The notes beneath the pieces were generated by a model. It was not told the DNA's origin. It saw nothing but the letters and a program-made list of their open reading frames with translations, and ran no database searches. Position numbers and translations under genes: made by a program. This document shows positions 1,427 through 24,848 of a stretch of 25,232 nucleotides of DNA, piece after piece; the first letter of the stretch is position 1; each line of letters opens with the position of its first letter. Source of the DNA: a virus; the IMG/VR virus record IMGVR_UViG_3300029797_000110, positions 1 through 25,232 of that record. One strand, given 5' to 3'.

Positions 1427-1428
1427 TG

Positions 1429-2149: not shown

Positions 2150-2160
2150 AAGTTCACCTC

Positions 2161-2484: not shown

Positions 2485-2497
2485 AAGGCCTCCTTTT

Positions 2498-3217: not shown

Positions 3218-3262
3218 TTTTACCTCCATTTTAATTTTTTAATTTCTCATAAATTTTAGAAT

Positions 3263-4072: not shown

Positions 4073-4115
4073 TTTTACCTCCTTATAAAATTAATTTTTT
4101 CATAAAGTTTAAAGT

Positions 4116-5240: not shown

Positions 5241-5252
5241 TTATCCTCCTCT

Positions 5253-7277: not shown

Positions 7278-7291
7278 TTATTATCCCCCTC

Positions 7292-8604: not shown

Positions 8605-8607
8605 ATA

Positions 8608-8958: not shown

Positions 8959-8961
8959 ATC

Positions 8962-9759
8962 TTACCTCCCTGTGTAGTATCTTGTGCCTTGTTGCCCTGC
9001 TGTAGTTGTTGATTTTGTTGGTTGCTCAAAGTAACTCATAGGTTCCGCAGTTCTTTGCAGGGTCTGCACAAAGAGATTTTCAAAAGTAATATCTACTTCA
9101 ATACTATCTGACCCGTCAAATTTTGGACTAATATTTTTTATAAGCATCTTGTCATAAGTTTCATTGAAAACTACAGTTATAAGCTCTTTATTTTTCCTCA
9201 TAGTCCTTATTTGGTTGAGCCTTGTCGTTCTGTCGTCTCCTGAGAGCACCACTGTGGCCGTCAAGGTTGTATTGTTATGTTCTGCGTCTTCGTTTGCTCT
9301 GTCAACGTTCTCAGAAGAAACTATACTTTGAGATATTGTGTCAGTAGATTCCACAGGGTTTGGATTATACAAATAATCTATAGCCACTCCACCAATGTCG
9401 TATTGGGTGGCCGTAGAGGCCCTTAGTGATTCTGTTTCTTCCAGGGCCTCTGTAAGATATGTTTGTGCGTCCTCCATATCACTTGTAGCTTCTGTTTTTA
9501 TTTCTCCAAGGAGAGTTTCTTGTGCTAGGTCCTCTACATCTGTAGCCGCAGTGTAGATTCCAATATCTTTTAAGACATCAGCCCACCTTTGCAGTCTGCC
9601 AGGAATGGCTTTCATTTCAAAAAGATAATTCTCCGCTATGTCTTTTGCTTCTTGTATAGCAGTCTCAAGGCTTTCAGGAGAGTCTATATCAGTAATATCT
9701 ATGTTTTCTATTTGTGTCCCTATATCCTTGAATCTTTTCATGTCTGATATAATACTCAC
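8962..9759 (-). CDS. Dit-like baseplate/tube-distal protein
   Basis: 265 aa from GTG at 9759, chosen because AGGAGG ends eight bases upstream; a start three codons earlier would lie in the ribosome site. The N-terminal ~120 residues are acidic and helical with Glu/Asp-rich coils. The C-terminal ~100 residues (TTLTATVVLSGDDRTTRLNQ, then NKELITVVFNETYDKMLIKNI, then SIEVDITFENL) match the Dit-like fold that joins the tail tube to the baseplate. It follows the tape measure gene directly, the usual place. The helical N-terminus is unlike simple Dit proteins and is unexplained. Confidence 0.6.
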   Translation of the reverse strand: MSIISDMKRFKDIGTQIENIDITDIDSPESLETAIQEAKDIAENYLFEMKAIPGRLQRWADVLKDIGIYTAATDVEDLAQETLLGEIKTEATSDMEDAQTYLTEALEETESLRASTATQYDIGGVAIDYLYNPNPVESTDTISQSIVSSENVDRANEDAEHNNTTLTATVVLSGDDRTTRLNQIRTMRKNKELITVVFNETYDKMLIKNISPKFDGSDSIEVDITFENLFVQTLQRTAEPMSYFEQPTKSTTTAGQQGTRYYTGR

Positions 9760-9760
9760 C

Positions 9761-11542: not shown

Positions 11543-11571
11543 TTATCCACCTCCTAACTTTAAGGAGGCCC

Positions 11572-12050
11572 TTAAGCCCCCTTTTTTAATTTACTCATGG
11601 CAAAAATCATTTCTTGGAAGGTATCTTCAGACATATTAAGTATTGGCTCTGGATTCTCCCAACACTTCAATGTGTCAATTACTGCCCATCTGTCTTGCCT
11701 TCTGATATATCCCCACTCTGCTTTTCGTTCTGCCCTGTCCCGCTCACGAATTTTAGAGTCGGTTTCCTGCTGATACCTTCCCCCAAGAAACCCCGGATAG
11801 CACCAAGTACCATATCTCTAGCTGCAGGATGATTTTTAAAATATTTATCCCCTTCTCGGGCTTCTACAGGTGACACGATACAGTCTTTTAGTGCTGCATT
11901 GGCAAAATTACCGAGAGAAATATCCCCTTTTTTATAAGCTGCCTCCAAATCATAAAACATTCCTAAATCCATTTCCTGTATCTCGAATTCTTGATTAACT
12001 ACTTTTTTCTTTGAATTTATAAAATCATTAAGTGTAAATTTATTTTCCAA
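11572..12050 (-). CDS. Tail assembly chaperone, long form by -1 frameshift (gpGT-like)
   Basis: A second reading frame continues past the short-form stop. It is open in the -1 frame from an early TAG to TAA at 11572. It encodes a coherent, charged sequence (QQETDSKIRERDRAERKAEW, then RRQDRWAVIDTLKCWENPEP, then FQEMIFAMSKLKKGA). Slippage at the GGGGG run (11784-11780, minus strand), with the Gly90 codon GGG in the P site, would give about 159 aa. The next -1 codon is GGA, so only the P-site tRNA re-pairs perfectly. This matches the known gpG/gpGT arrangement. The exact slip site is inference. Confidence 0.68.
11679..12050 (-). CDS. Tail assembly chaperone, short form (gpG-like)
   Basis: 123 aa from a TTG start; AGGAGG is six bases upstream. 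Located between the tube and tape measure genes, where tail chaperones sit. The N-terminal part (KFTLNDFINSKKKVVNQEFEIQ, then MDLGMFYDLEAAYKKG) looks like phage tail chaperones, which coat the tape measure during tube assembly. The short form ends at TAA near 11679. The longer form described in the next entry shares the first 90 residues. Confidence 0.7.
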   Translation of the reverse strand: MENKFTLNDFINSKKKVVNQEFEIQEMDLGMFYDLEAAYKKGDISLGNFANAALKDCIVSPVEAREGDKYFKNHPAARDMVLGAIRGFLGEGISRKPTLKFVSGTGQNEKQSGDISEGKTDGQ

Positions 12051-12061
12051 TTTCTACCTCC

Positions 12062-12487
12062 TTAAATAGCCTTAACTTTATATTCAGATGCTATGATGCT
12101 GTATTCTCTGTTGTCCCCTTCTCTTTTATCATCTTCTGGGGAAGCTTCAAAATAACACTCTGTCCCTGTTTCCTGTTTTTTATATAAGTTGTTTGATTCG
12201 TCAATCACAGTAAGATTGAAAGGGACAGTGTTTTCAATCAGGTTGTCTATGTACTTTTCATCTGTAGTACCTATTTTTACAGATAAAGTTGGATTTCTTG
12301 ATTTGTCCGGTATTTTCTTCAAGAAAACTACCCCCTGTGTGTCCGGCTCCCTCTTCTCAATCTTGTTTTCAGAGGCCCCAGAGTTGTAGTTTGCTATATT
12401 CGTAAGAGTTCTCGAAGAATATGAATCGTCAGTAGGACTTATTTTTATTGTCAAAAGTGATATATCTTTAGTTCTATCTCCTGCCAT
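12062..12487 (-). CDS. Tail tube protein
   Basis: 141 aa, directly after the sheath gene, where tube proteins of contractile phages lie. The sequence is beta-rich and polar (SLLTIKISPTDDSYSSRTLT, then NPTLSVKIGTTDEKYIDNLI, then REYSIIASEYKVKAI). No membrane segment or catalytic motif is seen. GAGGAGG precedes ATG by about eight bases. Size and position support a tube subunit. I do not recognise a specific family signature. Confidence 0.72.
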   Translation of the reverse strand: MAGDRTKDISLLTIKISPTDDSYSSRTLTNIANYNSGASENKIEKREPDTQGVVFLKKIPDKSRNPTLSVKIGTTDEKYIDNLIENTVPFNLTVIDESNNLYKKQETGTECYFEASPEDDKREGDNREYSIIASEYKVKAI

Positions 12488-12490
12488 TTA

Positions 12491-13621
12491 TTACGCCTCC
12501 TCTACGCTGAATGTTCTGCCGTCTGTGTAACCGGTGATATCCAATTCAAACCATTTTCCAATACCTCTAAGAGACACCTGGATACTAAACTGGAACTTAT
12601 TTGCATTACTTTCAAGAGTTCTGTCGATATCGACTTTTTCAACTGTGTAATCCGAAAGTAGCCCCTCTCCTGTAGTTTCATTGTAGATCGAACTTTCCAG
12701 TCTAGACACTATTGTGGCGTAGACATTCCCCTCGTCTACATTTGATACACCAAGTCTTTCAGAATTATGTCTTAGATTTACAAGGTCGCTTCTTAGATCT
12801 GTCTTGACTTTCAATAACTCCCACGCATTAATGAACTCATTTCCTGAAAAAAGAATTAGTCCAGAAGTCTCATTAAGATCGTCTACGGTAGTAACATAGA
12901 CGTTACAATTTTTATCATTTACCCAGCTTTGGGCCTCTGTAACTGTCATAGTGTCCTCTGTATCAGGTGTTACCCCGACAAGTTCCTTTGCCTCTCCATC
13001 TGCTTCCCCGACTCCCATGAAAATCACACGACCTGCAAAGGCAGCATCTGCTACTTCTTCAAATACGTCCGTTTCTGTTTCATAAGATTTAATCCCGGCG
13101 AATCTTGTAGAGTCTGCGAAAGTATCGCAGTGTTCTTTTTTCTCTACTGCAACCAAGGCCCAACAATCTTGGCTGTTAAGTATCGTGTTTAATTCATCTA
13201 CGAGTTCAGGAGCTGTTTGGAATATCGAGCAGTCATCAAAAACCACCATTACTACCCCTGAATTTTTCAACTGAGTTTCAAACCAGTTTTTGAAGGCAGT
13301 AACTTCATCTTCATCTGTTTCTGTTACTCCTGTAAGTGTTAAAAGCTTCCCAGCTGTGTAAAAAGTAGTAGGAAGGATTTCATTACCACTTACATCTACC
13401 TGAGAAATAGCTTTACTGATTTTTTCTATATATTTATCTTCACCGATAAAAGCTTCTTCTATTTCGGCCTCTGTTACACTCCCTGCCCATGATTTTAAAG
13501 CATTTGTAGCTCCTGTGCTTACAAATAACACCCCATTGAGTGAATTATCTGTAAGAGACATTACCTCTGTAACATTAGCTACTAGCCTGTTATACGGATT
13601 AAATGTGCTTCTAGTACCCAT
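12491..13621 (-). CDS. Contractile tail sheath protein
   Basis: 376 aa with a strong AAGGAGG site. Sheath subunits polymerise around the tube and contract to inject DNA. The N-terminal part is FNPYNRLVANVTEVMSLTDN. The centre looks like the globular sheath insert (VVMVVFDDCSIFQ, then CWALVAVEKKEH). The C-terminal ~100 residues (YTVEKVDIDRTLESNANKFQ, then VSLRGIGKWFELDITGY) resemble the conserved sheath core. Size is close to P2-type sheaths. This gene is the main evidence for a contractile tail. Confidence 0.82.
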   Translation of the reverse strand: MGTRSTFNPYNRLVANVTEVMSLTDNSLNGVLFVSTGATNALKSWAGSVTEAEIEEAFIGEDKYIEKISKAISQVDVSGNEILPTTFYTAGKLLTLTGVTETDEDEVTAFKNWFETQLKNSGVVMVVFDDCSIFQTAPELVDELNTILNSQDCWALVAVEKKEHCDTFADSTRFAGIKSYETETDVFEEVADAAFAGRVIFMGVGEADGEAKELVGVTPDTEDTMTVTEAQSWVNDKNCNVYVTTVDDLNETSGLILFSGNEFINAWELLKVKTDLRSDLVNLRHNSERLGVSNVDEGNVYATIVSRLESSIYNETTGEGLLSDYTVEKVDIDRTLESNANKFQFSIQVSLRGIGKWFELDITGYTDGRTFSVEEA

Positions 13622-13632
13622 TTATTTCCTCC

Positions 13633-14142
13633 TTAATCTATTATAGTTTCTGTTTCTTCTATATCTCCTGTGATCTCTATAGTTGTTAATTTCTCGATCT
13701 CTTTCTCTACGGTGTTGTTGTAGTCGATTGTGATGCTGAGCATATAACAATATAGATATACATTATCAACCTTTTGATGATTAGAACCTTTCAGACTGTA
13801 TCTGACAAGCCCAAACCCGCTATTGTTGATTTCCTCGCGCCATACTGCCACAATACGCCTGTAAAGGCTGTTACGTGCCTCTAGGGCCTCTTCTTTGTCC
13901 GTAGAATAAACTTTTAAAGTGAGCTCTACCTCATCCCGAAAAGATATTTCTTCCTGGAGCTTTCCCTCTTCGGTTTCTGTTCTGGTATCAATTTTTATTT
14001 CGTCTGAGATTGGATCTCCAAGGGTGTCGTAAGTTGCAAAAGGGGTATGAGGTAATTTTTTCCACATATTAGAAGGTATAACCTGTAAAGTTTCATCTGT
14101 AAGGTTAGCATTTATAATATCTATAAAACCATCAATAGTCAC
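13633..14142 (-). CDS. Neck/tail terminator-like protein
   Basis: 169 aa from GTG at 14142 with AAAGGACGG upstream. It overlaps the preceding gene by 11 bp. The pattern (MWKKLPHTPFATYDTLG, then ISFRDEVELTLKVYSTDKEEALEARNSLYRRI) resembles neck or tail terminator proteins that end the tube at the head-tail joint. The C-terminal tail is strongly acidic (EITGDIEETETIID). Position between stopper-like and sheath genes agrees. Family assignment is moderate. Confidence 0.6.
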   Translation of the reverse strand: MTIDGFIDIINANLTDETLQVIPSNMWKKLPHTPFATYDTLGDPISDEIKIDTRTETEEGKLQEEISFRDEVELTLKVYSTDKEEALEARNSLYRRIVAVWREEINNSGFGLVRYSLKGSNHQKVDNVYLYCYMLSITIDYNNTVEKEIEKLTTIEITGDIEETETIID

Positions 14143-14464
14143 TTGATATCACCGTCCTTTTCAGCCCGTAGATTTTCAGATCTGAAGAGTCATAGTCTTT
14201 AATCCGATTTACCTCATAGTTATTCCCGTTATAAGAAACAATCAGACCTTCATCCAAATCATCCTTAGTATAAAATTTACGGTCATCCCTTATATATTTA
14301 CCTGCTTCTATGTTTACCAGCTCCCAATTTTTGAAAGCTGTAACAAGGCCCGAAGTAGTTCCTCCAGGGCTAGAAGTTACCTCTTCCCCATTAACCCACT
14401 CAGTCGCCCCTTCCTGTATGGTGAGGGTCTGAGTATTTCCAAATAACAAAACATTTGTAAACAT
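14132..14464 (-). CDS. Head-tail joining (stopper-like) protein
   Basis: 110 aa from ATG at 14464; AGGAGG lies seven bases upstream. It is a beta-rich small protein (LFGNTQTLTIQEGATEWVNG, then DEGLIVSYNGNNYEVNRIKD) of the size expected for a stopper or head-tail joining protein, which plugs the portal until the tail joins. No recognisable motif. It lies between the neck gene and the tail terminator gene, the canonical place. The function is inferred from order. Confidence 0.55.
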   Translation of the reverse strand: MFTNVLLFGNTQTLTIQEGATEWVNGEEVTSSPGGTTSGLVTAFKNWELVNIEAGKYIRDDRKFYTKDDLDEGLIVSYNGNNYEVNRIKDYDSSDLKIYGLKRTVISSDY

Positions 14465-14479
14465 TTTCACACCTCCTTT

Positions 14480-14947
14480 CTACAGTTTTACTATTTCAAA
14501 ATTTACACTATCCAATAGAAAATCATTTTCCCTCAATATATTATTTTTATTTCTCTTTTTTTTCTTGATTGTAGCCTCTTTCAGAGGTTCAAAATCATTA
14601 CTCATAATCCGTTCTTTAATTCTCTGTTGTACAAAGAACCCAAGTTGATTAAGAGCCTGTTCCCCTGTAATACTGCCTTGATAAACTTCTTTCAGAAGGT
14701 CTTTTTGTTTAGTAAGAATCTCTTTTTCTGATTTCCTTGTACTTGTAGCAGTTCTGAAAAAGGGCCTTTCCGGCATGAAAAAGGTCCCATATTCCAAATG
14801 CTTGGCATACTCGATCACTTTTACACCATCTTGCTCTTTCTCAGCCTTGCTTCCAAAAATCCCTATTATAAGACCGTATCTTTTCAAATATTTGATTTCT
14901 TTCTCTATTTTGTTAAGTTTTTTGAAGTTCTTAACAACTTTTACCAT
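14480..14947 (-). CDS. Neck/tail completion protein (HK97 gp10- or virion-morphogenesis-like)
   Basis: 155 aa. A central motif (VKVIEYAKHLEYGTFFMPERPFFRTA) with Gly-Thr, Pro-x-Arg-Pro-Phe is typical of phage tail-completion or neck proteins of the gp10/virion morphogenesis type. The C-terminal part is basic (KKKKRNKNNILREND). It overlaps the preceding connector gene by 7 bp, with GATAGG upstream of ATG. The protein would sit at the head-tail junction. Its exact subfamily is uncertain. Confidence 0.65.
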   Translation of the reverse strand: MVKVVKNFKKLNKIEKEIKYLKRYGLIIGIFGSKAEKEQDGVKVIEYAKHLEYGTFFMPERPFFRTATSTRKSEKEILTKQKDLLKEVYQGSITGEQALNQLGFFVQQRIKERIMSNDFEPLKEATIKKKKRNKNNILRENDFLLDSVNFEIVKL

Positions 14948-15543
14948 GCTATATACCTATCAAGAGTATCCATAAAAGGCCCTGAAGTTTCAGCATAACT
15001 CCTGAAAGAGTATGAAATATCACTTATAGAGTAAGATTTAAGCCCTTGAGCCATTCCACCGCTTGCCATCTTAGTAGCAAAGCTATTTACAAGACCAGCT
15101 ACCGCCATTTTAAGGTCATATGGAACTGTTGAAGAATCTGAAGTTTCCTCAGTTGGGTAGACATACCCAGCCGTATAAGTAACCTTGATCTGGTCGCTTG
15201 CAGTAGTTCTCCCTGCAGTAACCTCTCCAAAGTCCTGCCCCTTTTTAAATATCCCTGTTGCCAGCTCAATCCTGCGGTCGTCATACCTGTATTGGTCCCC
15301 TGTGAGCACCGCACCATTTAATATGACCTCTGATATTGCTGTGACGGGCCTTTTATCAAGATATAAATACCTGCTCCCGCTTCCAATCTTATAATCAATC
15401 TTCACATCTTCCTCGAGAGATTCTCCTGCATAGCTTGCTATAAGATCTGTGACTACATTTAGATAATTTACAATTGTGGCGTCATCCAGAGTAGAATCAG
15501 GGGACAGGCCCCTGAACTCACTCTTATTTATTATTGTGCTCAT
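14941..15543 (-). CDS. Head-tail connector protein (gp6-like)
   Basis: 200 aa, first gene after the major capsid. The N-terminal helical part (STLDDATIVNYLNVVTDLIASYAG) and the beta segment (YLYLDKRPVTAISEVILNG) followed by DQIKVTYTAGYVYP and PYDLKMAVAGLVNS are typical of gp6-like/adaptor proteins that bind under the portal. Ribosome site is weak (AAGTGATAG) ahead of ATG at 15543. The gene overlaps the next one, suggesting coupled translation. Confidence 0.72.
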   Translation of the reverse strand: MSTIINKSEFRGLSPDSTLDDATIVNYLNVVTDLIASYAGESLEEDVKIDYKIGSGSRYLYLDKRPVTAISEVILNGAVLTGDQYRYDDRRIELATGIFKKGQDFGEVTAGRTTASDQIKVTYTAGYVYPTEETSDSSTVPYDLKMAVAGLVNSFATKMASGGMAQGLKSYSISDISYSFRSYAETSGPFMDTLDRYIAW

Positions 15544-15553
15544 AAGCTATCAC

Positions 15554-16774
15554 TTACGCTGACGCTTTTATTTTAAGTAGTTTCCCGTGAGAAGCTTGTC
15601 TTACTCTTCCACCCTGTCTTGTTCTAGTGTAAACTACCCATTCGTCTTCATCCGCATCTCTGTCTCTTTCAATATAGATTTCTTTTTTCTTTAGTGTCGC
15701 ATAGAACTCTCTACCTGCTGAGAATAGAACAGGATATTTCCCTTCTTCTACACCGTCCATGAAGGTGTCCTCTTTCACCTTGTAACCCATGAATTTTCCA
15801 GGTTCTCCAGCTATAAGAGATTCAGTATAAAGCGGTGTCCCATCTGAGTTCTGGAACCCTCTCATTGCAGATAAAGCCTCTGTACTTACTTTGAAAGTAC
15901 ACTTTCTTCTTACTTTAGGAGGCATAGCATAGATAAGGTTTTTAAGGTCTAGCCAATCAAAAGATCCTGCTGTTGCAGTTGTTTTGGCTGCATCTGTGAC
16001 AGTTGTGTTTGTGTAAATCCCTTCAAAATAATTATTAGAAGTTCCATAAGATCCATTCCAAACATTGTCTGAAATTTTTTCAGATATATTTTCTTTGGAA
16101 TCTTCATAGATTTCTTGAAATGCATCAAATTCAGCATCATCAATCATTTCTTGAGTTACCGATTGTTTATCAGTAATTTTTCCAACTTTAAGTTCTAAGA
16201 AGCTATAAGTAGATCCGCTTTCATCTCCTGCTGCTTCACCTTCTGCCTGAGCCGCCGCATTATTTGTCCCTTTTGTTTTTACTCTGACTTTGATAGAATC
16301 TCCAGCGGTAGTATATTTCCTAGATTCTTCATAGATTGGAGAAGTTTCATAAGTTTCTTTGATGATTTCATTTACTCTAACTTCAGGAAGTAAAGCTCCG
16401 CCAGATGCATCACCAGTAGATAATGTTTTTACGAAATCACTTCTATCCCCTGTTTTTACATATGCATTAAGGTCTGTAAGGTGCTTTTGAAGTTCCCCAT
16501 CAACATTTATTTTTGCTCCGCCATCCTTTATCACTCTGTCTAATGCCCCTTCAAGGTCTTCAAGACTTTTCTTGAGGGCCTCATTTTCTTCTTTCATGAG
16601 CTTTATTTCTTCTTTAGCCTCTTTGGTAAGAGTTTCTCCTGCTTCTTTTTCTTTTTTCTCTACTTCTTTCGTATCTTTAGTTAAGATCTCTTTTATGGAC
16701 CCGATTTCCTTCATGAAGTCCTCTTTTGTGATAAAATCCTTTTTTTCATTTTCACTTTTGTTAATTCCTGGCAT
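15554..16774 (-). CDS. Internal start giving scaffold-capsid protein alone
   Basis: Within the fusion, an in-frame ATG at 16774 (16774-16772) follows AAGGAGGA by 6 bases, as good a ribosome site as any in the window. Translation from it would give 406 aa: coiled-coil scaffold domain plus capsid, close to the length of a standalone HK97-type major capsid precursor. The ATG falls between the protease domain and the coiled coil, where a separate capsid gene would start. This suggests that one gene makes a small amount of fused protease and a large amount of capsid. Translation from this site is inferred. Confidence 0.62.
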   Translation of the reverse strand: MPGINKSENEKKDFITKEDFMKEIGSIKEILTKDTKEVEKKEKEAGETLTKEAKEEIKLMKEENEALKKSLEDLEGALDRVIKDGGAKINVDGELQKHLTDLNAYVKTGDRSDFVKTLSTGDASGGALLPEVRVNEIIKETYETSPIYEESRKYTTAGDSIKVRVKTKGTNNAAAQAEGEAAGDESGSTYSFLELKVGKITDKQSVTQEMIDDAEFDAFQEIYEDSKENISEKISDNVWNGSYGTSNNYFEGIYTNTTVTDAAKTTATAGSFDWLDLKNLIYAMPPKVRRKCTFKVSTEALSAMRGFQNSDGTPLYTESLIAGEPGKFMGYKVKEDTFMDGVEEGKYPVLFSAGREFYATLKKKEIYIERDRDADEDEWVVYTRTRQGGRVRQASHGKLLKIKASA

Positions 16775-17323
16775 ATTGTCTCCTCCTTGATCGTCTTTTA
16801 TTATCCCTGCCACAGGGTTTGCACCTCTAAATACCACACTTACCTCGTATATGTCCGCTTTACTTATGCCTCTGTAAGTCCTTCCATCCTTCTTGTAAGG
16901 CTTAGCTTCTAAAATTCTTCCGCCTATAGAAAGTTTAAGAGGAACCTTATTTTTCTTAAGTTTTACAATTTTTTCCGCTGTCTCATCGCCTTCCAGGAAG
17001 GCCCCTTTGATTGTGATTTTCTTTTTATCCTGCCCAAGTTTTCCGGCTCCTATAGCCTTTGTAATGTCCCAGGAGTGATTAGGCATCATAGGGACTGTTT
17101 TTCCTATACATTCGTCAAAGGCCCCTTCTAGAAATACATCTCCGTAAGAATCTGAGTTTCCGTAACTTGAGGCTATCCCTTCAAACTCATAGTCGCCAGA
17201 CTCCTCTTTATAGATTAAGTGACCGTCAAGGCACTTCTCAAATTTGCCTTCTTGGGTATCATCCTTTTGAAAATAGCTGTCTGCCATTGAGGCGAGAGCA
17301 GATATAAACATTTTCTTATTCAA
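15554..17323 (-). CDS. Fused HK97-type prohead protease and major capsid protein
   Basis: 589 aa from TTG at 17323 (AGGAGG eight bases upstream, just after the previous stop). Residues about 30-180 are an S78-family prohead protease: catalytic His about 83 in PNHSWDITKAIG, Ser about 132 in LKLSIGGRIL, and Glu about 160 in IYEVSVVFRGANP. Residues 190-265 are a coiled coil like the HK97 scaffold (delta) domain. Residues from about 305 to the end are an HK97-fold capsid, beginning DASGGALLPEVRVNEIIKE. Fusions of this kind are known in a minority of phages. The reading frame is intact with no frameshift. An internal start is described in the next entry. Confidence 0.88.
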   Translation of the reverse strand: MNKKMFISALASMADSYFQKDDTQEGKFEKCLDGHLIYKEESGDYEFEGIASSYGNSDSYGDVFLEGAFDECIGKTVPMMPNHSWDITKAIGAGKLGQDKKKITIKGAFLEGDETAEKIVKLKKNKVPLKLSIGGRILEAKPYKKDGRTYRGISKADIYEVSVVFRGANPVAGIIKDDQGGDNMPGINKSENEKKDFITKEDFMKEIGSIKEILTKDTKEVEKKEKEAGETLTKEAKEEIKLMKEENEALKKSLEDLEGALDRVIKDGGAKINVDGELQKHLTDLNAYVKTGDRSDFVKTLSTGDASGGALLPEVRVNEIIKETYETSPIYEESRKYTTAGDSIKVRVKTKGTNNAAAQAEGEAAGDESGSTYSFLELKVGKITDKQSVTQEMIDDAEFDAFQEIYEDSKENISEKISDNVWNGSYGTSNNYFEGIYTNTTVTDAAKTTATAGSFDWLDLKNLIYAMPPKVRRKCTFKVSTEALSAMRGFQNSDGTPLYTESLIAGEPGKFMGYKVKEDTFMDGVEEGKYPVLFSAGREFYATLKKKEIYIERDRDADEDEWVVYTRTRQGGRVRQASHGKLLKIKASA

Positions 17324-17324
17324 T

Positions 17325-17606
17325 CTATTCACCTCCTAGTAGATTTCTAGCCTTGCAAAGGGATTCTAGACTCCCCATCATGATTGAATTTACTACTGCT
17401 GCTTCTTCAAATTCTTTAATCTTTTCTGAAATTAAGCTATCGAGCTTAGCTTTATTATTTTCATGCATGTTTTTACAGCTTTCAAGGGCCTGTATGTCGT
17501 TTTTATGTTCCTGAAGGCTCTTTTTTAAGTCTTCATTCTCTATATTGAGAGCCTCAAGTTTACTTTTAAGGGCCTCGTTCTCTTTTTGTAATTCTTCTTT
17601 TGTCAA
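17325..17606 (-). CDS. Small coiled-coil protein upstream of the capsid fusion
   Basis: 93 aa from TTG at 17606, with AGGAGG eight bases upstream. Residues about 3-75 are a continuous coiled coil (ELQKENEALKSKLEAL, then ENEDLKKSLQEHKNDIQ). There is no membrane segment or enzyme motif. The end (MGSLESLCKARNLLGGE) is not coiled. Position between the MuF-like and protease-capsid genes suggests an assembly or scaffold-like role. I do not recognise a family. Confidence 0.6.
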   Translation of the reverse strand: MTKEELQKENEALKSKLEALNIENEDLKKSLQEHKNDIQALESCKNMHENNKAKLDSLISEKIKEFEEAAVVNSIMMGSLESLCKARNLLGGE

Positions 17607-17623
17607 TTTCTTCACCTCCTGAG

Positions 17624-18412
17624 TTAAAAATAAGATATCTGACAATAACAGTGGACAATATGCCCAGCCACCCTGACCAATGGATCTTTCGGGAACCTCA
17701 TATTTACTGCTGGGGTTTTCCCATGCCCAGGAACCTTAAATTTCTCTTTGATTCCTATAGTCACTTCATGCATCTTTATGTGTGAAGGCCTGTCAGTGAT
17801 CCCTCCTCCTGCATGTATCCACTTCTTCTTTTTAAGGCCCGCTTTAGAAGCCGTTTCAAAGTTGGCAGAGTTGATAGCCTTAGAAGTCTCTGTTCTGGCT
17901 ATTATCTTTGCTCTTTTCTTACCGATTTCTCCTTTGGTATCTGCCACAATCTCTCTAACCATATCATCAAAGCTCATTCCTGCTGTTTTATGCTCTGTGA
18001 TTCTGTTTTTGAGTATCTTCTTAGTGGTTCTTGATACTCTTGTTACTGTTTCTCCAGAATATCTCTCTAAATACTCTTTGAGGAGCTCAGATTCGATATT
18101 TTGCATCTGTTTTAGATTCAAAGTTCTTTTGAAATTCTCGACAAAATATTCTATAAACTCTCTTATGTTAAGTGTATGGACTGTGAAAAGGGTCTTTTGT
18201 AGTTTAGGGTCAAAGTATTCCTCTACCAAGTCGTCAAGGTCCTTCTCTATGTCGTCATAGTTACTCTTCTTATACCTGCTCTCTATTCCCTTTGCCAGGG
18301 ATTTATAAGGCTCCAGGAAATACCTCTCTCGCCTCTTTGATACTCTAGCTTCATAGTTCCGCAGGTTCTTAGCAAGCAGTTTTTCTTTTGCTTTTACCTT
18401 CTTCTTAGCCAT
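17624..18412 (-). CDS. MuF-like head morphogenesis protein
   Basis: 262 aa. The N-terminal 150 residues are helical and basic. The C-terminal ~110 residues are the MuF domain: IIARTETSKAINSANFETA, then GITDRPSHIKMHEVTIGIKE, then PLVRVAGHIVHCYCQISY, with the expected Arg-x-Ser-His and His-x-x-His-Cys-x-Cys positions. These are minor head proteins that load inside or near the portal and sometimes carry toxin domains; no added effector domain is seen here. The gene lies directly after the portal, as is normal. The start overlaps the upstream 32-aa membrane peptide. Confidence 0.82.
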   Translation of the reverse strand: MAKKKVKAKEKLLAKNLRNYEARVSKRRERYFLEPYKSLAKGIESRYKKSNYDDIEKDLDDLVEEYFDPKLQKTLFTVHTLNIREFIEYFVENFKRTLNLKQMQNIESELLKEYLERYSGETVTRVSRTTKKILKNRITEHKTAGMSFDDMVREIVADTKGEIGKKRAKIIARTETSKAINSANFETASKAGLKKKKWIHAGGGITDRPSHIKMHEVTIGIKEKFKVPGHGKTPAVNMRFPKDPLVRVAGHIVHCYCQISYF

Positions 18413-18503
18413 CGAACAGCCTCACAAGGTATAGAAGGCCCTTTACAGCTAGAAAAAGAAAGGTAAATGCAATAAACTTTAAATTTTTCTTTTTAATCTT
18501 CAC
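18405..18503 (-). CDS. Candidate 32-aa membrane peptide overlapping the portal gene
   Basis: Read from GTG at 18503 with AGGAGG eight bases upstream, inside the end of the portal gene (different frame), to TAA at 18405, overlapping the MuF start by 8 bp. The product has a basic N-terminus (KIKKKNLKF) and one hydrophobic helix (IAFTFLFLAVKGLLYLV), ending RLFDG. It fills the gap between portal and MuF genes. A strong ribosome site and coupled overlaps support it. The function is unknown; it could be a host-membrane effector of the head module. Confidence 0.5.
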   Translation of the reverse strand: MKIKKKNLKFIAFTFLFLAVKGLLYLVRLFDG

Positions 18504-19770
18504 CCTCTCCGCCTCCTTTGCCTTCATCTTCATCAGGTTCTATATAATCAATTGGGACATCTGCCCCAGATACAAATAACTTATCTGCATTAGGATGATT
18601 ATATTTTTCCACTTCCAGTCCTGTTTGTGCTGCAGTAATAGCTCTTTTATCATTCATGGTGAGGAATTTACTGTTATTAAGCTTGTCTATAGTGTCCATC
18701 ATGTCACTTCTGAGCTCTTCTATAGCTGATATATCAAACCACACAAATTGATTGTCTTTTAGTTTATCCTTGAAAATTTTTGTGTAATAATCAGCTGTTT
18801 TCTTAGCAAGTGGAAGAACCGTATTTTTATACAGTTTTTTCTTATCTTCCACAGAGTTGTTGTAAGTCGCTCCAGCATCTGAAATCATAGATAAAGGCAC
18901 TCCCATGATATTAGCTACCATCTTGTTAGCCAATTCCCATCCTTGAGTCCAGTCCATTTCATGTGGGTTTACTGAAGTGTCAATATATTCCACGTCCTGG
19001 GGAAGTATGCCACCAAGTTTTCCAGCCTTCTGATACCCTTCCAAGGCTTCCTTAAGTTTTTCCTCAAATTCTTCCCTCTGTTTTTTCCCAATTCTTGTAT
19101 TATCCCCATCCTTCTGTTTGAATAATCCATTTTTATGCCCTTTATTTTTTACAAGGGTTGTATTGTGGGAGACCATGTAGTTTATAAGGTCACAGATAGG
19201 CCCTAGGGCCTCGAGAGGTGAAGAGCCTGCCCCAATTCCTGCTATCCTTGCATCAGGATCCAGGGATTTCATAAGATGGAAATTTAAAAGGTCCCTTCCT
19301 GCTACTTTTTTGGTTGGAAGTTGTATACAGTCGAGTGCCATTCTGTCCCTTGCATACTCTATAGAGTACACATCTGGGGCAAATAATAGCAGGTCAGAAG
19401 AAACATAACCATCCACTCTTTGGCAAAGGTTCCTCCCTCCGAAGAGGTAATAAAATAATAGATATTCCTGAAACTCTATCCTGGTAAGGAGAGGATTAGG
19501 GTTTTGAAGTGTAGAATCGACCCATTTGTTTTCTACAGGCTCTATCGAAGTCATTTTCTTTCCGTTTTTCTTTATGTTTTTCTTTTCAAAAACCTTGAAT
19601 TCTATATTTAGAAAGGCATTTTGTAACGGGGTGTATGCTGCCGCTACAGATGGGTTCCTATATACAGTTTTCCTATATGTCGCATAATTGGTTTTATAGC
19701 TTGGGAAAAGATTCAAGAACCCTGACCAAACAGCCCACGGGTTACTTTTTTTCTTGAAAAAATTCAACAA
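18493..19770 (-). CDS. Portal protein, HK97 family
   Basis: 425 aa from TTG at 19770 (GGAGG seven bases upstream). The dodecameric portal is the DNA gate of the head vertex and the platform for packaging. Visible parts: YRNPSVAAAYTPLQNAFLNI near the N-terminus; the wing and stem region with LLNFHLMKSLDPDARIAGIG and SSPLEALGPICDLINYM; the central KLGGILPQDVEYIDTS and ANIMGVPLSMISDAGATYNN; and an acidic, Gly/Glu-rich tail. An AGGCCCTAGGGCCT palindrome (19198-19211) lies within this gene. Assignment by family motifs and position after the terminase genes. Confidence 0.88.
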   Translation of the reverse strand: MLNFFKKKSNPWAVWSGFLNLFPSYKTNYATYRKTVYRNPSVAAAYTPLQNAFLNIEFKVFEKKNIKKNGKKMTSIEPVENKWVDSTLQNPNPLLTRIEFQEYLLFYYLFGGRNLCQRVDGYVSSDLLLFAPDVYSIEYARDRMALDCIQLPTKKVAGRDLLNFHLMKSLDPDARIAGIGAGSSPLEALGPICDLINYMVSHNTTLVKNKGHKNGLFKQKDGDNTRIGKKQREEFEEKLKEALEGYQKAGKLGGILPQDVEYIDTSVNPHEMDWTQGWELANKMVANIMGVPLSMISDAGATYNNSVEDKKKLYKNTVLPLAKKTADYYTKIFKDKLKDNQFVWFDISAIEELRSDMMDTIDKLNNSKFLTMNDKRAITAAQTGLEVEKYNHPNADKLFVSGADVPIDYIEPDEDEGKGGGEGED

Positions 19771-19784
19771 TTTTTCACCTCCTT

Positions 19785-19940
19785 TCAAATAAGGTGTCTC
19801 ATAAGGCCCTTTTTATTTAGTTCCCTGTATACTGCAGGTAAGGACAGCTCATTACTTTTGCAGTAGGTCACGAGTTTATCAATTTTTGTTTTCCTACCTT
19901 TTTCAGCTTTTTCTTGTATAGTTTTTATTATTTCTTCCAT
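19785..19940 (-). CDS. Small protein of 51 aa, unknown function
   Basis: ATG at 19940 with AGGGG nine bases upstream, overlapping the preceding stop. It ends at TGA near 19785, 15 bp before the portal start. It is basic and helical (EEIIKTIQEKAEKGRKTKID) and then resembles a short helix-turn-helix-like pattern (SNELSLPAVYRELNKKGLM). The HTH reading is weak. It is translationally linked to the portal operon. No family recognised. Confidence 0.55.
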   Translation of the reverse strand: MEEIIKTIQEKAEKGRKTKIDKLVTYCKSNELSLPAVYRELNKKGLMRHLI

Positions 19941-19951
19941 TCTGCTTGCCC

Positions 19952-20125
19952 CTAATCACAAGGAATACAATATCTGATAAGAGTTACTTTCTCTCCTGTT
20001 TCAGCCTCTATGTGGTCTTTTGCCATGTCTGTTGTGAAATTACATTTTGAACTAAACCTACATCTGCCAAGTTTATGCATCCCGCTTTTATCTAAGTAAA
20101 CATATCCAACTCTATATTCTTTCAC
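19952..20125 (-). CDS. Small Cys-containing protein, unknown function
   Basis: About 57 aa if read from GTG at 20125; earlier in-frame TTG/GTG codons (20146, 20140) lie in or against the GGAGG site, so the start is uncertain. The sequence has CRFSSKCNF in the middle and ends RYCIPCD, four Cys that could bind zinc. It contains YRVGYVYLDKSGMHKLG near the N-terminus. It follows the 53-aa Cys-rich gene. No family is recognised. Confidence 0.5.
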   Translation of the reverse strand: MKEYRVGYVYLDKSGMHKLGRCRFSSKCNFTTDMAKDHIEAETGEKVTLIRYCIPCD

Positions 20126-20157
20126 TTCTTCATCACACACCTCCAATTAAATTTTAG

Positions 20158-20319
20158 CTACTTTTCTATATATTCATACTCGCACTTGCTGCAGTTGTGA
20201 CCTCTCGCCTTGCATTCCATTTCCTTGAATTCATGCTTAAAACATAGATTACATGCATCTGTACAGTATTTATCACAATTTAAACATCGATGATCTAACA
20301 TGCATCTCGATAATCCCAT
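20158..20319 (-). CDS. Cys-rich 53-aa protein, probable zinc-binding
   Basis: ATG at 20319 follows AGGAGG by 5 bases, overlapping the TerL stop codon. The 53-aa product has nine Cys (C6, C12, C15, C19, C23, C26, C36, C43, C46), with CLNCDKYC, DACNLC and NCSKC pairs spaced like zinc ribbons or knuckles. The Cys density and clean ribosome site argue that it is a real gene. It has no membrane segment. A role in nucleic acid or protein binding in the packaging module is inferred. No family is recognised. Confidence 0.65.
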   Translation of the reverse strand: MGLSRCMLDHRCLNCDKYCTDACNLCFKHEFKEMECKARGHNCSKCEYEYIEK

Positions 20320-20328
20320 CTAAACCTC

Positions 20329-21825
20329 CTAAATAAACTTAGTGCCATATACAGCTTGGAGAAAAGCGTCCGACTTGTCCGGGGACCTCTTGAGCCTTTC
20401 TTTTACCTTGTCTTTTTTCTCGACTATGATGGTTCCATCCGATTTAAACTCATACTGCCTTGTAGAAAGCTCCTGTATTAGGTCTTTATCAGCTGGAATA
20501 GATATAAGGCCCTTTTCAAGCTGTTCTTTCAAGTGAAAGTGCATCTCTGTAATGGTGTTAGCAAATTCATTAGGTTCAAATACCTTGTTGGAACCGTTGT
20601 TTATTTCCACTACCTCGAGTCCTGGGACTTTAGGATTATATCCTTTTTCATCTTTCCTGTCGTAATCCTCGTCAAGGAGTTCCCTCAATCTATCTACTAC
20701 AGGGCCTCCGACCCCTACGGCATCTATGAAAAGATAATGTTCTTTCTCAGGAGTAGCCTGACACCATCTTGATATCTCTCCCACACAGCTCATAGTTGAT
20801 TTTTTTTCATACTCAAAGGCTAATTCGATCAGGGAACCAGTATTTTTATATCCAACTGTGTGATCTCCACCGTACCTGGCGACGTCCACTCCCATGATTT
20901 CATATCCTTCAAAAGCAATTCCTATAGATATTCCCACAGAGCTCTCAATAAGCCCCCTAGGTATTACCGTATTCTCTGTGGAATCAGGAGGGAGGCCCTT
21001 TATTCTTACACGGTAAACGTTAGAATCTTCGCCATATCTTCTTTTTATTGATTCTACTTGATCTTTTGACATGAAAGGACTGTCCTCAGAATTAAGTCTG
21101 ATTACATTCAGGGCCTCGTCTTGGACATGATAGGCCCATTCATAGAAAAACCCGTCTGTTCTGGTCATGTTCCCAAATACCACCATTCTATTGGCATCTG
21201 TTCCCTCAAGTACCTCCATGATCCTGTCATCTACTCCTGAGGCTTCATCCACGAGTACCAAAAGGTTATCTTCTGTGGTAGTGTGATTCCCTTCTTTTAG
21301 GAGCCTTGTTATTTCCTTGATTGTGGTATCATCTTCAATTTTGGTGATTCCCATTTGTTCCATGAGTTCCTCAACTATTGCTGACTTGTCCCCATGCTGC
21401 CCTTGGATGGCATCTGGATTCTTAGGGGAGATAGGAAGCATGTACCATTCCCTCTTGAGCTCTTCATCATTGATTTGCATGATATTATTTTTAAGATTGA
21501 ACATATCAAATTTCTTGAGGATTGATTTGTTATACCACTTATTCACTTCGGCATAATAGACAGTTGATAGCTGCCTCCATGTAGGTGAAGTTACTATTAC
21601 CCTTGCCTTGTGTCTTGTAGACAGCCAATGGAGTGTAATAGCTGCCGCTATAGCAGATTTTCCGCAACTGTGACCGCTGGGGACTACAGTAATAGGATTT
21701 TCCACATAGCTTTCCAGGATGTCCCTCTGCCCTTTCCAAATAAGATGCATCTTAAGAATTGAGTTGCAGAATTTTAAAGGCTCTTTTTGATAGGGCCTTA
21801 AAGTTTTACAAAGTTCTGTCATCAT
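20329..21825 (-). CDS. Terminase large subunit (packaging ATPase-nuclease)
   Basis: 498 aa. ATPase part: Walker A GHSCGKS at about 51-57 and Walker B NLLVLVDEASG at about 186-195. Nuclease part: Asp313 in IMGVDVARYGGD, Asp367 in FIDAVGVGGP and Asp482/485 in SPDKSDAFLQAV, the RNase H-like acidic triad. It cuts concatemers and drives DNA into the portal. It overlaps TerS by ATGA. Start ATG at 21825 with AAGGTGAT upstream, with a second ATG one codon later. It is the first structural gene after the small subunit. Confidence 0.93.
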   Translation of the reverse strand: MMTELCKTLRPYQKEPLKFCNSILKMHLIWKGQRDILESYVENPITVVPSGHSCGKSAIAAAITLHWLSTRHKARVIVTSPTWRQLSTVYYAEVNKWYNKSILKKFDMFNLKNNIMQINDEELKREWYMLPISPKNPDAIQGQHGDKSAIVEELMEQMGITKIEDDTTIKEITRLLKEGNHTTTEDNLLVLVDEASGVDDRIMEVLEGTDANRMVVFGNMTRTDGFFYEWAYHVQDEALNVIRLNSEDSPFMSKDQVESIKRRYGEDSNVYRVRIKGLPPDSTENTVIPRGLIESSVGISIGIAFEGYEIMGVDVARYGGDHTVGYKNTGSLIELAFEYEKKSTMSCVGEISRWCQATPEKEHYLFIDAVGVGGPVVDRLRELLDEDYDRKDEKGYNPKVPGLEVVEINNGSNKVFEPNEFANTITEMHFHLKEQLEKGLISIPADKDLIQELSTRQYEFKSDGTIIVEKKDKVKERLKRSPDKSDAFLQAVYGTKFI

Positions 21826-22427
21826 TTGAAATCACCTTCTACTGCTTTTCTTAGCTCCTGTAGGCCCTGTTTAATTTCTTCATTCCTGTCCCCTGTTGGA
21901 TCCTTCCTAATCTCAAGCTCTTTTTCCTTAAGCCTGAGATTTTTATTGTCGGTTTTTTTCTTATGTAAAAGTTTGTCTATCTCGAGGTTATGTTTCAATG
22001 CCTCTTCATAGACTTGAGTTTCTCTGATAGAGGATCTCTCTTTCCTAATCTGAGCCAATGTCTGAACAGAAAACATTGTATTCATAACTGTGATGGCTGG
22101 TTTTTCTCCGACAATTACACCTTCTTCTTTTATCGGCTTGGTTTCATGAAGCTTTTTATCTATAAGCCTGGTGGCTTTCTCATAGAGGTTATCCATGTCT
22201 TTATATATTGTCGCTATTTCTTCTCCGTACTTGGTTGTTATGATATCCTGGGCCTTTCTTGCAGCTTCTTTTTTCAAGCCATTCTTTTCCCAACACTCTT
22301 TCTTTGCTCTTGCTGAAATGGTCTTGAAATGAGGCCCGTACTTTTTTTCAAGAGCTTTATAAGTGCTGCCTTTTGTGATTCTCTCGAGTTTTATCTTTTC
22401 CCATAATTCTTTTGAATACTGTGCCAC
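21822..22427 (-). CDS. Terminase small subunit
   Basis: 201 aa from GTG at 22427, with a G-rich GGGGGGTGG site upstream. The N-terminal 45 residues (WEKIKLERITKGSTYKALEK, then ISARAKKECWEKNG) look like the HTH of phage terminase small subunits, and the rest is helical with a central coiled coil (AQIRKERSSIRETQVYEEAL) for oligomerisation. The protein binds the pac or cos site and recruits TerL. The genes overlap by ATGA, so translation is coupled. The C-terminus is charged and likely the TerL contact. Confidence 0.8.
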   Translation of the reverse strand: MAQYSKELWEKIKLERITKGSTYKALEKKYGPHFKTISARAKKECWEKNGLKKEAARKAQDIITTKYGEEIATIYKDMDNLYEKATRLIDKKLHETKPIKEEGVIVGEKPAITVMNTMFSVQTLAQIRKERSSIRETQVYEEALKHNLEIDKLLHKKKTDNKNLRLKEKELEIRKDPTGDRNEEIKQGLQELRKAVEGDFK

Positions 22428-22632
22428 TTTTTTTAACCACCCCCCTCTGAGTTTGAAAAAAAGGATAAAAAATGGATAGATAGTGTTTGAACCGTTTTCA
22501 CCTACTAGTTTGTTTAGTTATAATCTAGAATTACACGTGTATTAATTCTTTAAGGCCTGCTATTGTTGGTATAAATACAATTTCAAGGCGTGGGATATAA
22601 TACAATTTAAAATCCTAACTAAAATGAGAATT
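22428..22632 (-). promoter_or_regulatory. Intergenic region with candidate late promoter and palindrome
   Basis: 205 bp without a gene, between the rep-like gene and TerS. On the minus strand TATAAC and TTAATA are spaced 17 bp, a fair -10/-35 pair. The spacer contains TACACGTGTA (22532-22541), a perfect 10-bp palindrome. The flanks GAATTACACGTGTA and ATTC would be an 18-bp palindrome but for an inserted TTA. This may be an operator or activator site that controls the late genes. It is AT-rich and contains AAGGCCTG near 22552. No terminator is obvious after the rep-like gene. Confidence 0.45.
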
Positions 22633-23766
22633 TTACAGGCTTAATTTCACTGTAATTTCCTCAATACTTTTTATATATTCGGGTTTTTTCTTTACAGGTT
22701 CGTAATATTTTTTAAGGTTACGTTTCCAATCCCTCCTGGTCTCGGGTTTTTCAGCAACTAAATCTACTGCATCAAGGCACTCTTGGAGTCCCCAGACGGA
22801 AGTAACATTTCGTAGAAGGTACTTTAATAAAAATCCTCTGTCATTTTGCCTCCTCGCTTGTCTCAAAGCTACAGCTTGCCATTTTGCCCTCTGTTCTTTT
22901 TTATCTCTGAGGTGTTCTTTTTCTAATCCAGTTTCATTTATGACAGAGTAAAATATTTCTTCCATGAATGTATCCATACACTCAGAAAACTCTTTTAAAG
23001 TAGTTTCCTTTGGTATAAATCTATATAAAGCATCTTTTTTTAAGGTTATTTCTGCCCTGATCATAGATTTATATTTTCTAGTCATTTCTCTAAGGTCTGA
23101 CTTAGTGAGTTTTTTTAAAAAATCTTCATTTTTATATTTTTTTAAGAATACTTCTAAAGATTTATCGTATAATTTTAGGTTTTTATTTTTTGTCCCAAAT
23201 TTAAAAGTTGTTAAATTTTTTAACTCTTCATGCTTGAATGTAGACCTCTTAAAATGCCCTCTAATAATACTTTTTTTAGCCTCTTCTAAAGGTTTTTCAT
23301 AGTCTGAAAATGTCTTTTCTAACATCAAATACCTATTGAGTTCAGCCATGTGAAGATTACATTCAGATAAATCAATATCAATCCCGTAAGTTTTAAGATG
23401 CTCCTCCAATTTATCCAAAGCATTATTAAAATCTTCCTTAGAAGTTATACTGTTTATATTTTCTTCCCATAAAATTTTGGGCAAATTAACTTCCAAGTGG
23501 CAATACCAAATGTTTTTTATCTTCTTAGTTATAAAAACATTTATTAATTGGTCACTTATGACATTTTTTTTATTGATATCAAAAGGGGCCTTTTTAATAG
23601 CTTTTTTTGGTATAGAAAACTTTACTTTATCTAACCCTATCGAGGTTTTTAAATTATGAGACAACTTCTTATTTGGACTTTTAAGTTTCTGAAGTTCTTT
23701 GTTGTAAACTTTTGTCTGAATACTCAGGTACTCTTTGCTTAATATGTCTGCAATGTCCATCTTCAC
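22633..23766 (-). CDS. Gene II/X-like (filamentous phage/plasmid) replication initiator
   Basis: About 377 aa from GTG at 23766 (AGAGG ten bases upstream; ATG at 23760 is an alternative). The pattern fits the gene II/X rolling-circle initiator family: IGLDKVKFSIP near the N-terminus, HLEVNLPKILW then LDKLEEHLKTYGIDID, then TFKFGTKNKNLKLYDKSLEV and MIRAEITLKKDA. These nick a replication origin and start single-stranded replication (family knowledge). The C-terminal ~100 residues are basic with VALRQARRQNDRG. It is not a normal part of a myovirus head module. GC is very low in its middle (23101-23160 is 10/60 G or C by my count). Catalytic Tyr not proven. Confidence 0.65.
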   Translation of the reverse strand: MKMDIADILSKEYLSIQTKVYNKELQKLKSPNKKLSHNLKTSIGLDKVKFSIPKKAIKKAPFDINKKNVISDQLINVFITKKIKNIWYCHLEVNLPKILWEENINSITSKEDFNNALDKLEEHLKTYGIDIDLSECNLHMAELNRYLMLEKTFSDYEKPLEEAKKSIIRGHFKRSTFKHEELKNLTTFKFGTKNKNLKLYDKSLEVFLKKYKNEDFLKKLTKSDLREMTRKYKSMIRAEITLKKDALYRFIPKETTLKEFSECMDTFMEEIFYSVINETGLEKEHLRDKKEQRAKWQAVALRQARRQNDRGFLLKYLLRNVTSVWGLQECLDAVDLVAEKPETRRDWKRNLKKYYEPVKKKPEYIKSIEEITVKLSL

Positions 23767-23804
23767 ATAACTTTTCACCTCTTTCTGTTAGTTTCACTTA
23801 AAAA

Positions 23805-23843
23805 CTTCACTGAGCCGTCAGGGGAGGCGACAACTCAGTGAAG
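23805..23843 (-). terminator. Hairpin with U-run: terminator, attenuator or origin candidate
   Basis: CTTCACTGAG and CTCAGTGAAG form a perfect 10-bp stem around a 19-nt loop that can extend by GTC/GAC. On the minus strand it is followed by TTTTT (23804-23800), so it can terminate transcription running from the antirepressor towards the rep-like gene. It is 39 bp before the rep-like start. It overlaps a second hairpin (next entry). The position also suits a rolling-circle replication origin, since such origins often lie next to the initiator gene. Confidence 0.6.
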
Positions 23844-23856
23844 GCATTAAGCCTTC
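23840..23856 (-). promoter_or_regulatory. Alternative hairpin overlapping the terminator arm
   Basis: GAAGGC and GCCTTC pair around the loop TTAAT (minus strand). The 3' arm shares GAAG/CTTC bases with the first arm of the larger hairpin, so only one of the two can form at a time. This is the geometry of a terminator/anti-terminator attenuator, or of stacked origin hairpins. Which one is not settled by sequence. Confidence 0.5.
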
Positions 23857-23900
23857 ATGGTTCGTGTTGCTATATATAATTAATTTAAAGGAGGGCCTGT

Positions 23901-24572
23901 TTATACCGCTACCAGCTTGTTTATATAATCAACGCCCTTTTGAAATACCACGGTTTTTATGTTGATATTTGTTGTTCCATCGGGCTTGGTAAACTTCGAC
24001 TCTATACATCTGAAATACCCACGGTCTATGTATTCCTGGTAAGGTAAATTATTATACTGTAATACTTTTTTATCTCTTAAAATTTTGAAAAGTGTATTTC
24101 TTCCAATGCCTTTATTTATAACCTTTGCAACAGTCCCTATATCTATAGTTGCTTTACTTTCGATAATCTCATCATAAAATTCTTCTTTCGGCTTCATTTC
24201 AAGCACTTTTTTATGTTGTTGTTCAATTATTTCCTGTTGTTCTGCCGCTAGGAGTAAGGCTTCTCTGAAATTCTGAGGTACTTTTGATTTTTCTTCAAGC
24301 TGATTCATTCTCTGAATGAGTGCATATCTGATTTTTGCATCATACCTGGCTCCAAGTTGGAGGACTCCGTCTTTTGTCAAGCTGTACATAGGTTGTTCTT
24401 TGTTTTGAGAGTTGATGTACGAGGACAACGCAAAAATGCTCAGTCCTATTTCGCTCCCAAGTTTGTTGATCTCATCTTTGATATCTCTCATTATATCTGC
24501 ATGTCTTTTCCCTGTGATCTCTGCCACTTCCAAACTTGTTAGTCCACTGTTTTCAATTTTTACTAGACTCAT
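23901..24572 (-). CDS. Rha/KilAC-type phage antirepressor
   Basis: 223 aa, ATG with GGAGGG five bases upstream. Residues 8-95 are a Rha-type DNA-binding regulator domain (LTSLEVAEITGKRHADIMRD, MYSLTKDGVLQLGARY). Residues about 100-125 are a linker helix (LLLAAEQQEIIEQQHKKV). Residues about 130-220 resemble a KilAC/ANT-type domain (EEFYDEIIESKATIDIGTVA, then GRNTLFKILRDKKVL). Such proteins inactivate phage repressors or act as transcription regulators in the lytic switch. Two tandem hairpin repeats lie in its leader. It is separated from upstream genes by a strong terminator. Confidence 0.85.
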   Translation of the reverse strand: MSLVKIENSGLTSLEVAEITGKRHADIMRDIKDEINKLGSEIGLSIFALSSYINSQNKEQPMYSLTKDGVLQLGARYDAKIRYALIQRMNQLEEKSKVPQNFREALLLAAEQQEIIEQQHKKVLEMKPKEEFYDEIIESKATIDIGTVAKVINKGIGRNTLFKILRDKKVLQYNNLPYQEYIDRGYFRCIESKFTKPDGTTNINIKTVVFQKGVDYINKLVAV

Positions 24573-24601
24573 TTTATCCCTCCATATTATTTTTTTAGAA
24601 G

Positions 24602-24658
24602 GTAGGGTGCCCCATCACACCCGGTTTATCTGAATGTAGGGTGTCCCATCACACCCGG
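24602..24658 (-). repeat. Two tandem 23-bp repeats, each an inverted-repeat hairpin
   Basis: Copies at 24602-24624 and 24636-24658 (period 34 bp) differ by one base. On the minus strand each has GGGTGT, loop GATGGG, and a pairing arm ACACCC (second copy) or GCACCC (first copy, G-U). They lie 30-86 bp upstream of the antirepressor start, so they could be operator pairs for a dimeric repressor or RNA hairpins in its leader. Two copies are too few to be a CRISPR. Confidence 0.75.
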
Positions 24659-24692
24659 GTTATAACTTTGTGAAAGCGATTTAAAATAAAAA

Positions 24693-24757
24693 AAGATGGA
24701 GTTTATCTCAAAATAAAGACACTTTTAAAATGTCTCGATTGAGATAAACACCATCTT
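24693..24757 (-). terminator. Very long hairpin terminator upstream of the antirepressor
   Basis: AAGATGG-A-GTTTATCTCAA and TTGAGATAAAC-A-CCATCTT form a 19-bp stem with one A-A mismatch. The loop of about 27 nt carries a further AGACA/TGTCT stem. On the minus strand it is followed by TTTTTTTATTTT. It would stop transcription entering the antirepressor region from the right. The stem is far longer than a usual terminator, so a small RNA or dual-strand terminator is possible. Confidence 0.75.
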
Positions 24758-24848
24758 CTTTAAGATCGCCATGTTTAATCTTCTATTTTATTGGAGCTGC
24801 AAGATCCCACCTTATAGGTCGCCAGATTACTTGCCAGCCTTAATCTTT
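24758..24848 (-). other. Structured 91-bp spacer without a gene
   Basis: The minus strand has GCTGGCAAG...CTTGCAGC (8 bp with one bulge) enclosing ACCT-ATA-AGGT. A 15-codon frame from ATG at 24772 has no ribosome site. With the adjacent long hairpin, it may be part of a leader or small RNA. I see no other gene. Confidence 0.35.

Follow-up and report, generated by a model that had tools for sequence, protein, structure and literature searches.

A gene II/X-type nickase gene recurs beside the packaging genes of Fusobacteriota tailed phages and may start the DNA copying that feeds packaging

Why should a tailed double-stranded DNA prophage carry, next to its terminase genes, a replication initiator of the kind found in filamentous phages? 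In lambda-like phages, rolling-circle replication supplies the concatemers needed by terminase. The passage from theta to rolling-circle replication is a long-standing open point in these phages, and we know of no dedicated initiator of that step. Tailed phages of the P2 type possess a rolling-circle initiator, gpA, which is an HUH protein and in P2 is the product of an early-region gene.

The locus described here lies in a virus contig of 25,232 nucleotides, the whole of which is referred to as the window. A preliminary description noted a gene II/X-like open reading frame between the antirepressor and the terminase genes, and offered as explanations a captured rolling-circle unit, a satellite element, or a phage using rolling-circle initiation. 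The reading frame is present as described (22633-23778, minus strand, 381 amino acids), and is called CRI below. The prophage is that of a tailed phage, with genes for a portal, an HK97-type protease and capsid, a tape measure and a baseplate; it adjoins a host gene for a malic enzyme, the nearest kin of which are found in Fusobacteriaceae (Propionigenium maris, 74%). The early region falls outside the window because the record stops at position 25232. The features of the locus are as follows.

20329..21825, minus strand: terminase large subunit (TerL), matching phrog_2 (E 9e-31) and, by tblastn, phage terminases
21822..22427, minus strand: helix-turn-helix (HTH) and coiled-coil gene, the partner of CRI, 201 amino acids, with a TerS-like N-terminus by profile alignment
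22428..22632, minus strand: non-coding gap between CRI and the HTH gene, found at nearly all loci
22456..22478, minus strand: direct repeats 11 bp apart, TATCCATTTTT TATCCTTTTTT, belonging to a lag-11 signal across the gaps between CRI and the next gene
22633..23778, minus strand: CRI gene, GTG start, 381 amino acids, a predicted nickase of the gene II/X type (Phage_CRI / Rep_trans fold)
23805..23843, minus strand: hairpin of the preliminary description, with outer arms at 23805-23814 and 23834-23843 and a stem of 16 pairs, then TTTTTAAG
23901..24572, minus strand: antirepressor, the upstream neighbour of CRI, with pRha and KilAC/ANT domains (PF03374, E 4e-26; PF09669, E 2e-18)

Family, fold and catalytic residues of CRI

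On its own, the window protein matched no family at E<0.01 in profile searches; tblastn in phages and plasmids, and scans of viral and genome contigs with the single protein, were likewise empty. The neighbouring malic enzyme pointed to P. maris, and whole-genome searches in Fusobacteriota yielded homologues with 26-37% identity, and it is through these that the proposed likeness to gene II/X, invisible with the window protein alone, was borne out. One homologue (L094) matches TIGR01629 (rep_II_X) at E 2e-5, a match that does not reach that model's cut-off; homologues also match phrog_702 (replication protein, E 2e-4) and PF05144 (Phage_CRI, E 1e-3), and the proteins of two loci (L104 and L105) exceed the curated PF05144 cut-off. 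A 15-member family profile matches M13 gpII with an E value of 4e-8 against that single sequence. The same profile supplies the catalytic tyrosine whose prediction the preliminary description had proposed: the invariant Tyr204 aligns opposite gpII Tyr197, the residue that is joined to the 5' end of the nicked strand (PMC5405960).

Enzymes of the Rep_trans and Phage_CRI families bear an Asp and the motifs RxD, YxKxxE and RxE (PMC5714925, PMC4797284). The set in the window protein is D50, E146, Y204/K206/E209 and R241/E243, the Y204 codon being at 23167-23169; CRI has E instead of D in the RxD motif (motif I). Among 13-15 divergent members of the family, D50, E146, YxKxxE and RxE are conserved, apart from one member with D for E146. 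CRI shares a common core with M13 gpII, PF05144 and TIGR01629, in which the tyrosine of YxKxxE aligns with gpII Tyr197 and RxE and NxxK are kept. CRI differs from the gene II/X proteins of filamentous phages in having additional helices at both ends and an HTH partner, and in residing beside the terminase of double-stranded DNA tailed prophages. No inovirus coat or assembly genes are found among its neighbours in the window, which comprise the antirepressor and terminase genes and those for the portal, head, tape measure and baseplate.

An AlphaFold2 model of CRI (14 sequences; pLDDT 84.4, pTM 0.82) places Tyr204 at the end of a beta strand comprising residues 199-205. The best fold matches in the PDB are 4cij (Z 9.3), 4cwe (8.9) and 4cwc (8.6), all Rep_trans initiators (RepSTK1, RepDE), followed by TBP at 5.5, and a Foldseek search of viral models (BFVD) has inovirus proteins among its matches. 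The predicted fold and the active-site motifs are the same as those of Rep_trans proteins (pT181-type RepD/RepDE, RepSTK1; PF02486), from which CRI is set apart by its phage packaging context, rather than a plasmid or ICE, and by its sequence, neither the window protein nor its homologues matching PF02486 at E<1. No H-U-H motif occurs in the translated protein. Like P2-type gpA, CRI would be a single-strand nickase encoded by a tailed phage; unlike gpA, it has a Rep_trans-type fold, lies by the terminase and is no HUH protein. By its sequence relatives and its modelled fold, CRI is a predicted single-tyrosine nickase of the gene II/X type with intact catalytic residues.

Distribution, partner gene and terminase classes

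Of 98 Fusobacteriota genomes, at least 23 contain CRI: a 13-member profile detected it in 21, and of seven divergent loci recovered by iterating the profile, two lie in further genomes. None was found in 398 genomes of one Bacillota group, a result that shows little since no positive control matched. A tblastn search with three members revealed no relatives in 50,697 sequenced phage genomes, and the module has therefore probably been overlooked so far. The arrangement is undescribed in the parts available of the papers found on prophages of Fusobacteriota, on Phage_CRI and on sigma replication.

In more than 30 Fusobacteriota prophages CRI occupies the same position, directly upstream of the HTH and terminase genes, in a near-constant order: CRI, in some cases a small open reading frame or ParB-like gene, the HTH gene, in some cases an HNH gene, TerS and TerL. 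The preliminary description had weighed its rolling-circle idea against a gene that is fixed in related phages and has no rolling-circle signature; the gene is indeed fixed in this way, and the signature is present.

Of 33 CRI genes, 29 are followed by the HTH gene, whereas none of 11 CRI-less loci has it, indicating that the two genes travel together. One homologue of the HTH protein weakly matches TerS PHROGs. Many CRI phages possess a separate, conventional TerS (Terminase_4; Nu1-like), and in these phages the HTH protein is therefore an additional TerS-like protein; in the window it may be TerS itself. Genes for HNH proteins are kept beside the terminase in cos phages, and CRI is likewise a nuclease gene next to TerS and TerL. 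HNH genes are present at some CRI loci too; CRI differs from their products in fold and chemistry, and brings its own HTH gene and repeats.

The terminases beside CRI fall into five to six classes, including GpA, Terminase_1, Terminase_3 and Terminase_6-like. At 40 loci with a GpA-type TerL, CRI is upstream in at least 26 and absent in nine, one locus being cut off and four not inspected; CRI is present at 11 of 14 Terminase_1-type loci, of which five are almost identical copies within a single genome. Since CRI-less loci exist in both classes (at least nine GpA-type and two Terminase_1-type), packaging in general does not need CRI. The terminase labels require nine changes on the CRI tree, and the small clade of the window (the window and L091-L094) alone bears five labels. 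One genome (G008, L118-L121) contains five near-identical CRI phage regions on four contigs (C1 twice, C3, C4 and C5), which vary in broken terminase or portal reading frames and in one HTH start.

CRI-bearing relatives encode separate replication proteins, Rep_3 at L091 and L094 and an HTH_36/DnaD-type protein with ParA at L131 and L139, so that the task of main initiator need not fall to CRI. The ParA-type ATPases (L131:700-1401 and L139:599-1300) suggest a phage-plasmid lifestyle for these two phages.

Non-coding DNA and base composition around CRI

The gap that follows the CRI stop codon is mostly 130-210 nt long, and repeats with a spacing of exactly 11 bp recur in it near the ribosome-binding site of the next gene. 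These repeats were spotted by eye and the statistical test was made afterwards. Across lags of 5-30 at 26 loci, lag 11 has a z score of 7.3 and all others are at most 2.2; at 16 loci less than 45% identical, in a fixed interval of 180 nt, lag 11 scores 5.5-7.1 and the other lags at most 2.1. No such signal is seen in the DNA upstream of CRI (z 1.3), in 89 other intergenic gaps (z 1.2) or before terS of CRI-less phages. We infer that the repeats are a candidate binding site of CRI or of the HTH protein. They are not a universal mark of CRI, being missing from seven divergent loci, a clade with the ParB-like gene (lag 11, z 0.3). In that clade lag 10 has a z score of 4.7 (7 sequences), and CGCGTGATAATAAT is visible by eye.

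Conservation among close relatives is much stronger in the half of the gap that adjoins the next gene than in the half next to CRI, and the conserved half contains a core resembling CCYTAnTAAYnAgg some 20-30 nt before the repeats. TTATAACTAA in the window, at 22514-22523, bears a tentative likeness by eye to the CCYTAnTAAY of this core. A nick core followed by binding repeats is the layout of the f1 origin, which the gap resembles by analogy only. Folding of the 60 nt before the repeats gave no hairpin common to the loci, and a conserved nick hairpin in the gap was rejected.

Upstream of CRI, the preliminary description had pointed to a hairpin with perfect 10-bp arms and a 19-nt loop, 39 bp from the gene. 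Arms and loop are as stated, and the distance to the CRI start is 26 nt. Its fold as single-stranded DNA has a z score of -2.5, equalled by 3 of 200 shuffles. It scores as an intrinsic terminator, TTTTTAAG coming after the stem on the minus (coding) strand, and is most likely the terminator of the antirepressor gene; as a nick site it was rejected on account of this terminator-like structure. Directly upstream of the antirepressor start lie two operator-like 34-nt direct repeats, about 85% alike, with a GTAGGGTGYCCCATCACACCCGG core (24591-24658), and the non-coding end of the record contains a 23-nt inverted repeat (91% complementary, 27-nt spacer; 24689-24761).

The CRI gene had also been singled out for an AT-rich middle and for the scarcity of AGGCCC/GGGCCT, and both observations hold. 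Its GC content is 30% (25-29% in the middle), compared with 37% for the window and 41% for TerL, and it contains one copy of the motif against 42 in the whole window. CRI genes are more AT-rich than their own TerL genes at 30 of 32 loci (mean GC 29% versus 35%); low GC is a property of the CRI family. The motif itself is phage-wide: its 42 occurrences (22 and 20 by strand, about 6.6 expected) extend from 5144 to 23893 with a spacing of about 400 bp, there are none in positions 1-5143, and the relatives checked have no clear enrichment.

Satellite-like elements and the role of the module

P. maris harbours three related elements of about 6-7.5 kb without a terminase (L095:9229-16648, L096:1045-7365 and L097:521-6469), which encode a serine recombinase, a RepA_N/DnaD-type protein and CRI, and in which no structural genes were seen. 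They retain the 11-bp-spaced repeats, yet no gene lies just downstream of these. At 356-575 nt after CRI they possess a segment of about 90 bp with AAGGTACTGTG, in common with a co-resident phage (L093), where it stands directly before terS. About 100 nt before terS in this phage (L093:11300), and in L124, L133, L194, L206 and others, the same motif (AAAAAGGTACTGTG) is followed by a GC-rich stretch. This motif is conserved across Fusobacteriota phages with a GpA terminase, whether CRI is present or absent, and is probably a cos site; the cos site of lambda has a comparable place, shortly before terS.

The three elements look like candidate cos-type satellites that kept CRI. Known cos-type phage satellites include P4 and the cos-PICIs, which they resemble in the cos-like segment common to a co-resident phage and in the apparent lack of structural genes. 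They differ in that their genes include one for a nickase of the gene II/X type and one for a RepA_N-type initiator. The satellite proposal of the preliminary description thus finds a counterpart in these relatives; it does not hold for the window prophage, the gene being at the same place in more than 30 prophages.

Taking as established the family, fold and catalytic residues of CRI, its fixed position, partner gene and cis repeats, and its presence in terminase-less elements with a cos-like segment, we judge it slightly better than an even chance that CRI, the HTH gene and the repeats form a module for initiating late rolling-circle (concatemer) synthesis next to the packaging genes. In that case CRI would act late in lytic growth: it would nick circular phage DNA near its own gene, possibly with the repeats as its site, and would remain joined to the nicked 5' end through Tyr204. 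The free 3' end would prime rolling-circle synthesis, generating concatemers that the adjacent terminase would cut and package. Of the explanations offered at the outset, the one that fares best is that of a phage with rolling-circle initiation; the family and catalytic residues agree with it, and the role in replication is conjectural. We regard as plausible, though somewhat short of probable, a wider proposal in which the module is dedicated to switching tailed phages to rolling-circle (sigma) replication at the genome's packaging end, is exchanged across terminase classes and is used by cos-type satellites.

The main rival is a packaging-accessory role, to which we assign a minor but real chance: CRI and the TerS-like HTH protein would aid the terminase by nicking or marking DNA near cos or pac, with no drive to replication. 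The location of CRI within the packaging cluster beside HNH, TerS and TerL, its TerS-like partner, and its retention along with a cos-like site in the P. maris elements are all consistent with such a role, but the known functions of the family elsewhere are the initiation of replication and relaxation, and CRI-less phages of the same terminase class still carry the cos-like motif. It is rather improbable that CRI serves a plasmid-like state of the prophage, starting rolling-circle replication of the excised circle or its mobilisation, with a proximity to the terminase that is historical. The Rep_trans-fold kin of CRI include plasmid initiators and ICE relaxases (PMC5714925), and ParA and plasmid-type initiators occur in some relatives; however, theta-type initiators are already present in relatives, and the coupling to the terminase cluster has stayed fixed through many terminase swaps. 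A DNA-binding regulator with a nickase fold, no longer catalytic and acting on late genes through the repeats, would account for the position of the repeats shortly before the ribosome-binding site of the next gene, but we consider it very unlikely, as the catalytic residues are conserved and the P. maris elements keep the repeats though no gene follows them closely. That a captured rolling-circle unit or satellite is lodged in the window prophage, as its AT-richness and motif scarcity had suggested, is hardly credible, given the synteny in over 30 prophages, the low GC of nearly all CRI genes and the terminator-like hairpin.

If the preferred reading of a late rolling-circle module is true, the theta-to-rolling-circle switch becomes a gene that can be deleted and assayed. 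The locus extends the settings of Phage_CRI initiators to a new one, the tailed double-stranded DNA phages of a whole phylum, and flags apparent cos-type satellites in Fusobacteriota. CRI is a recurring gene of Fusobacteriota tailed phages, and may start the DNA copying that feeds their packaging.
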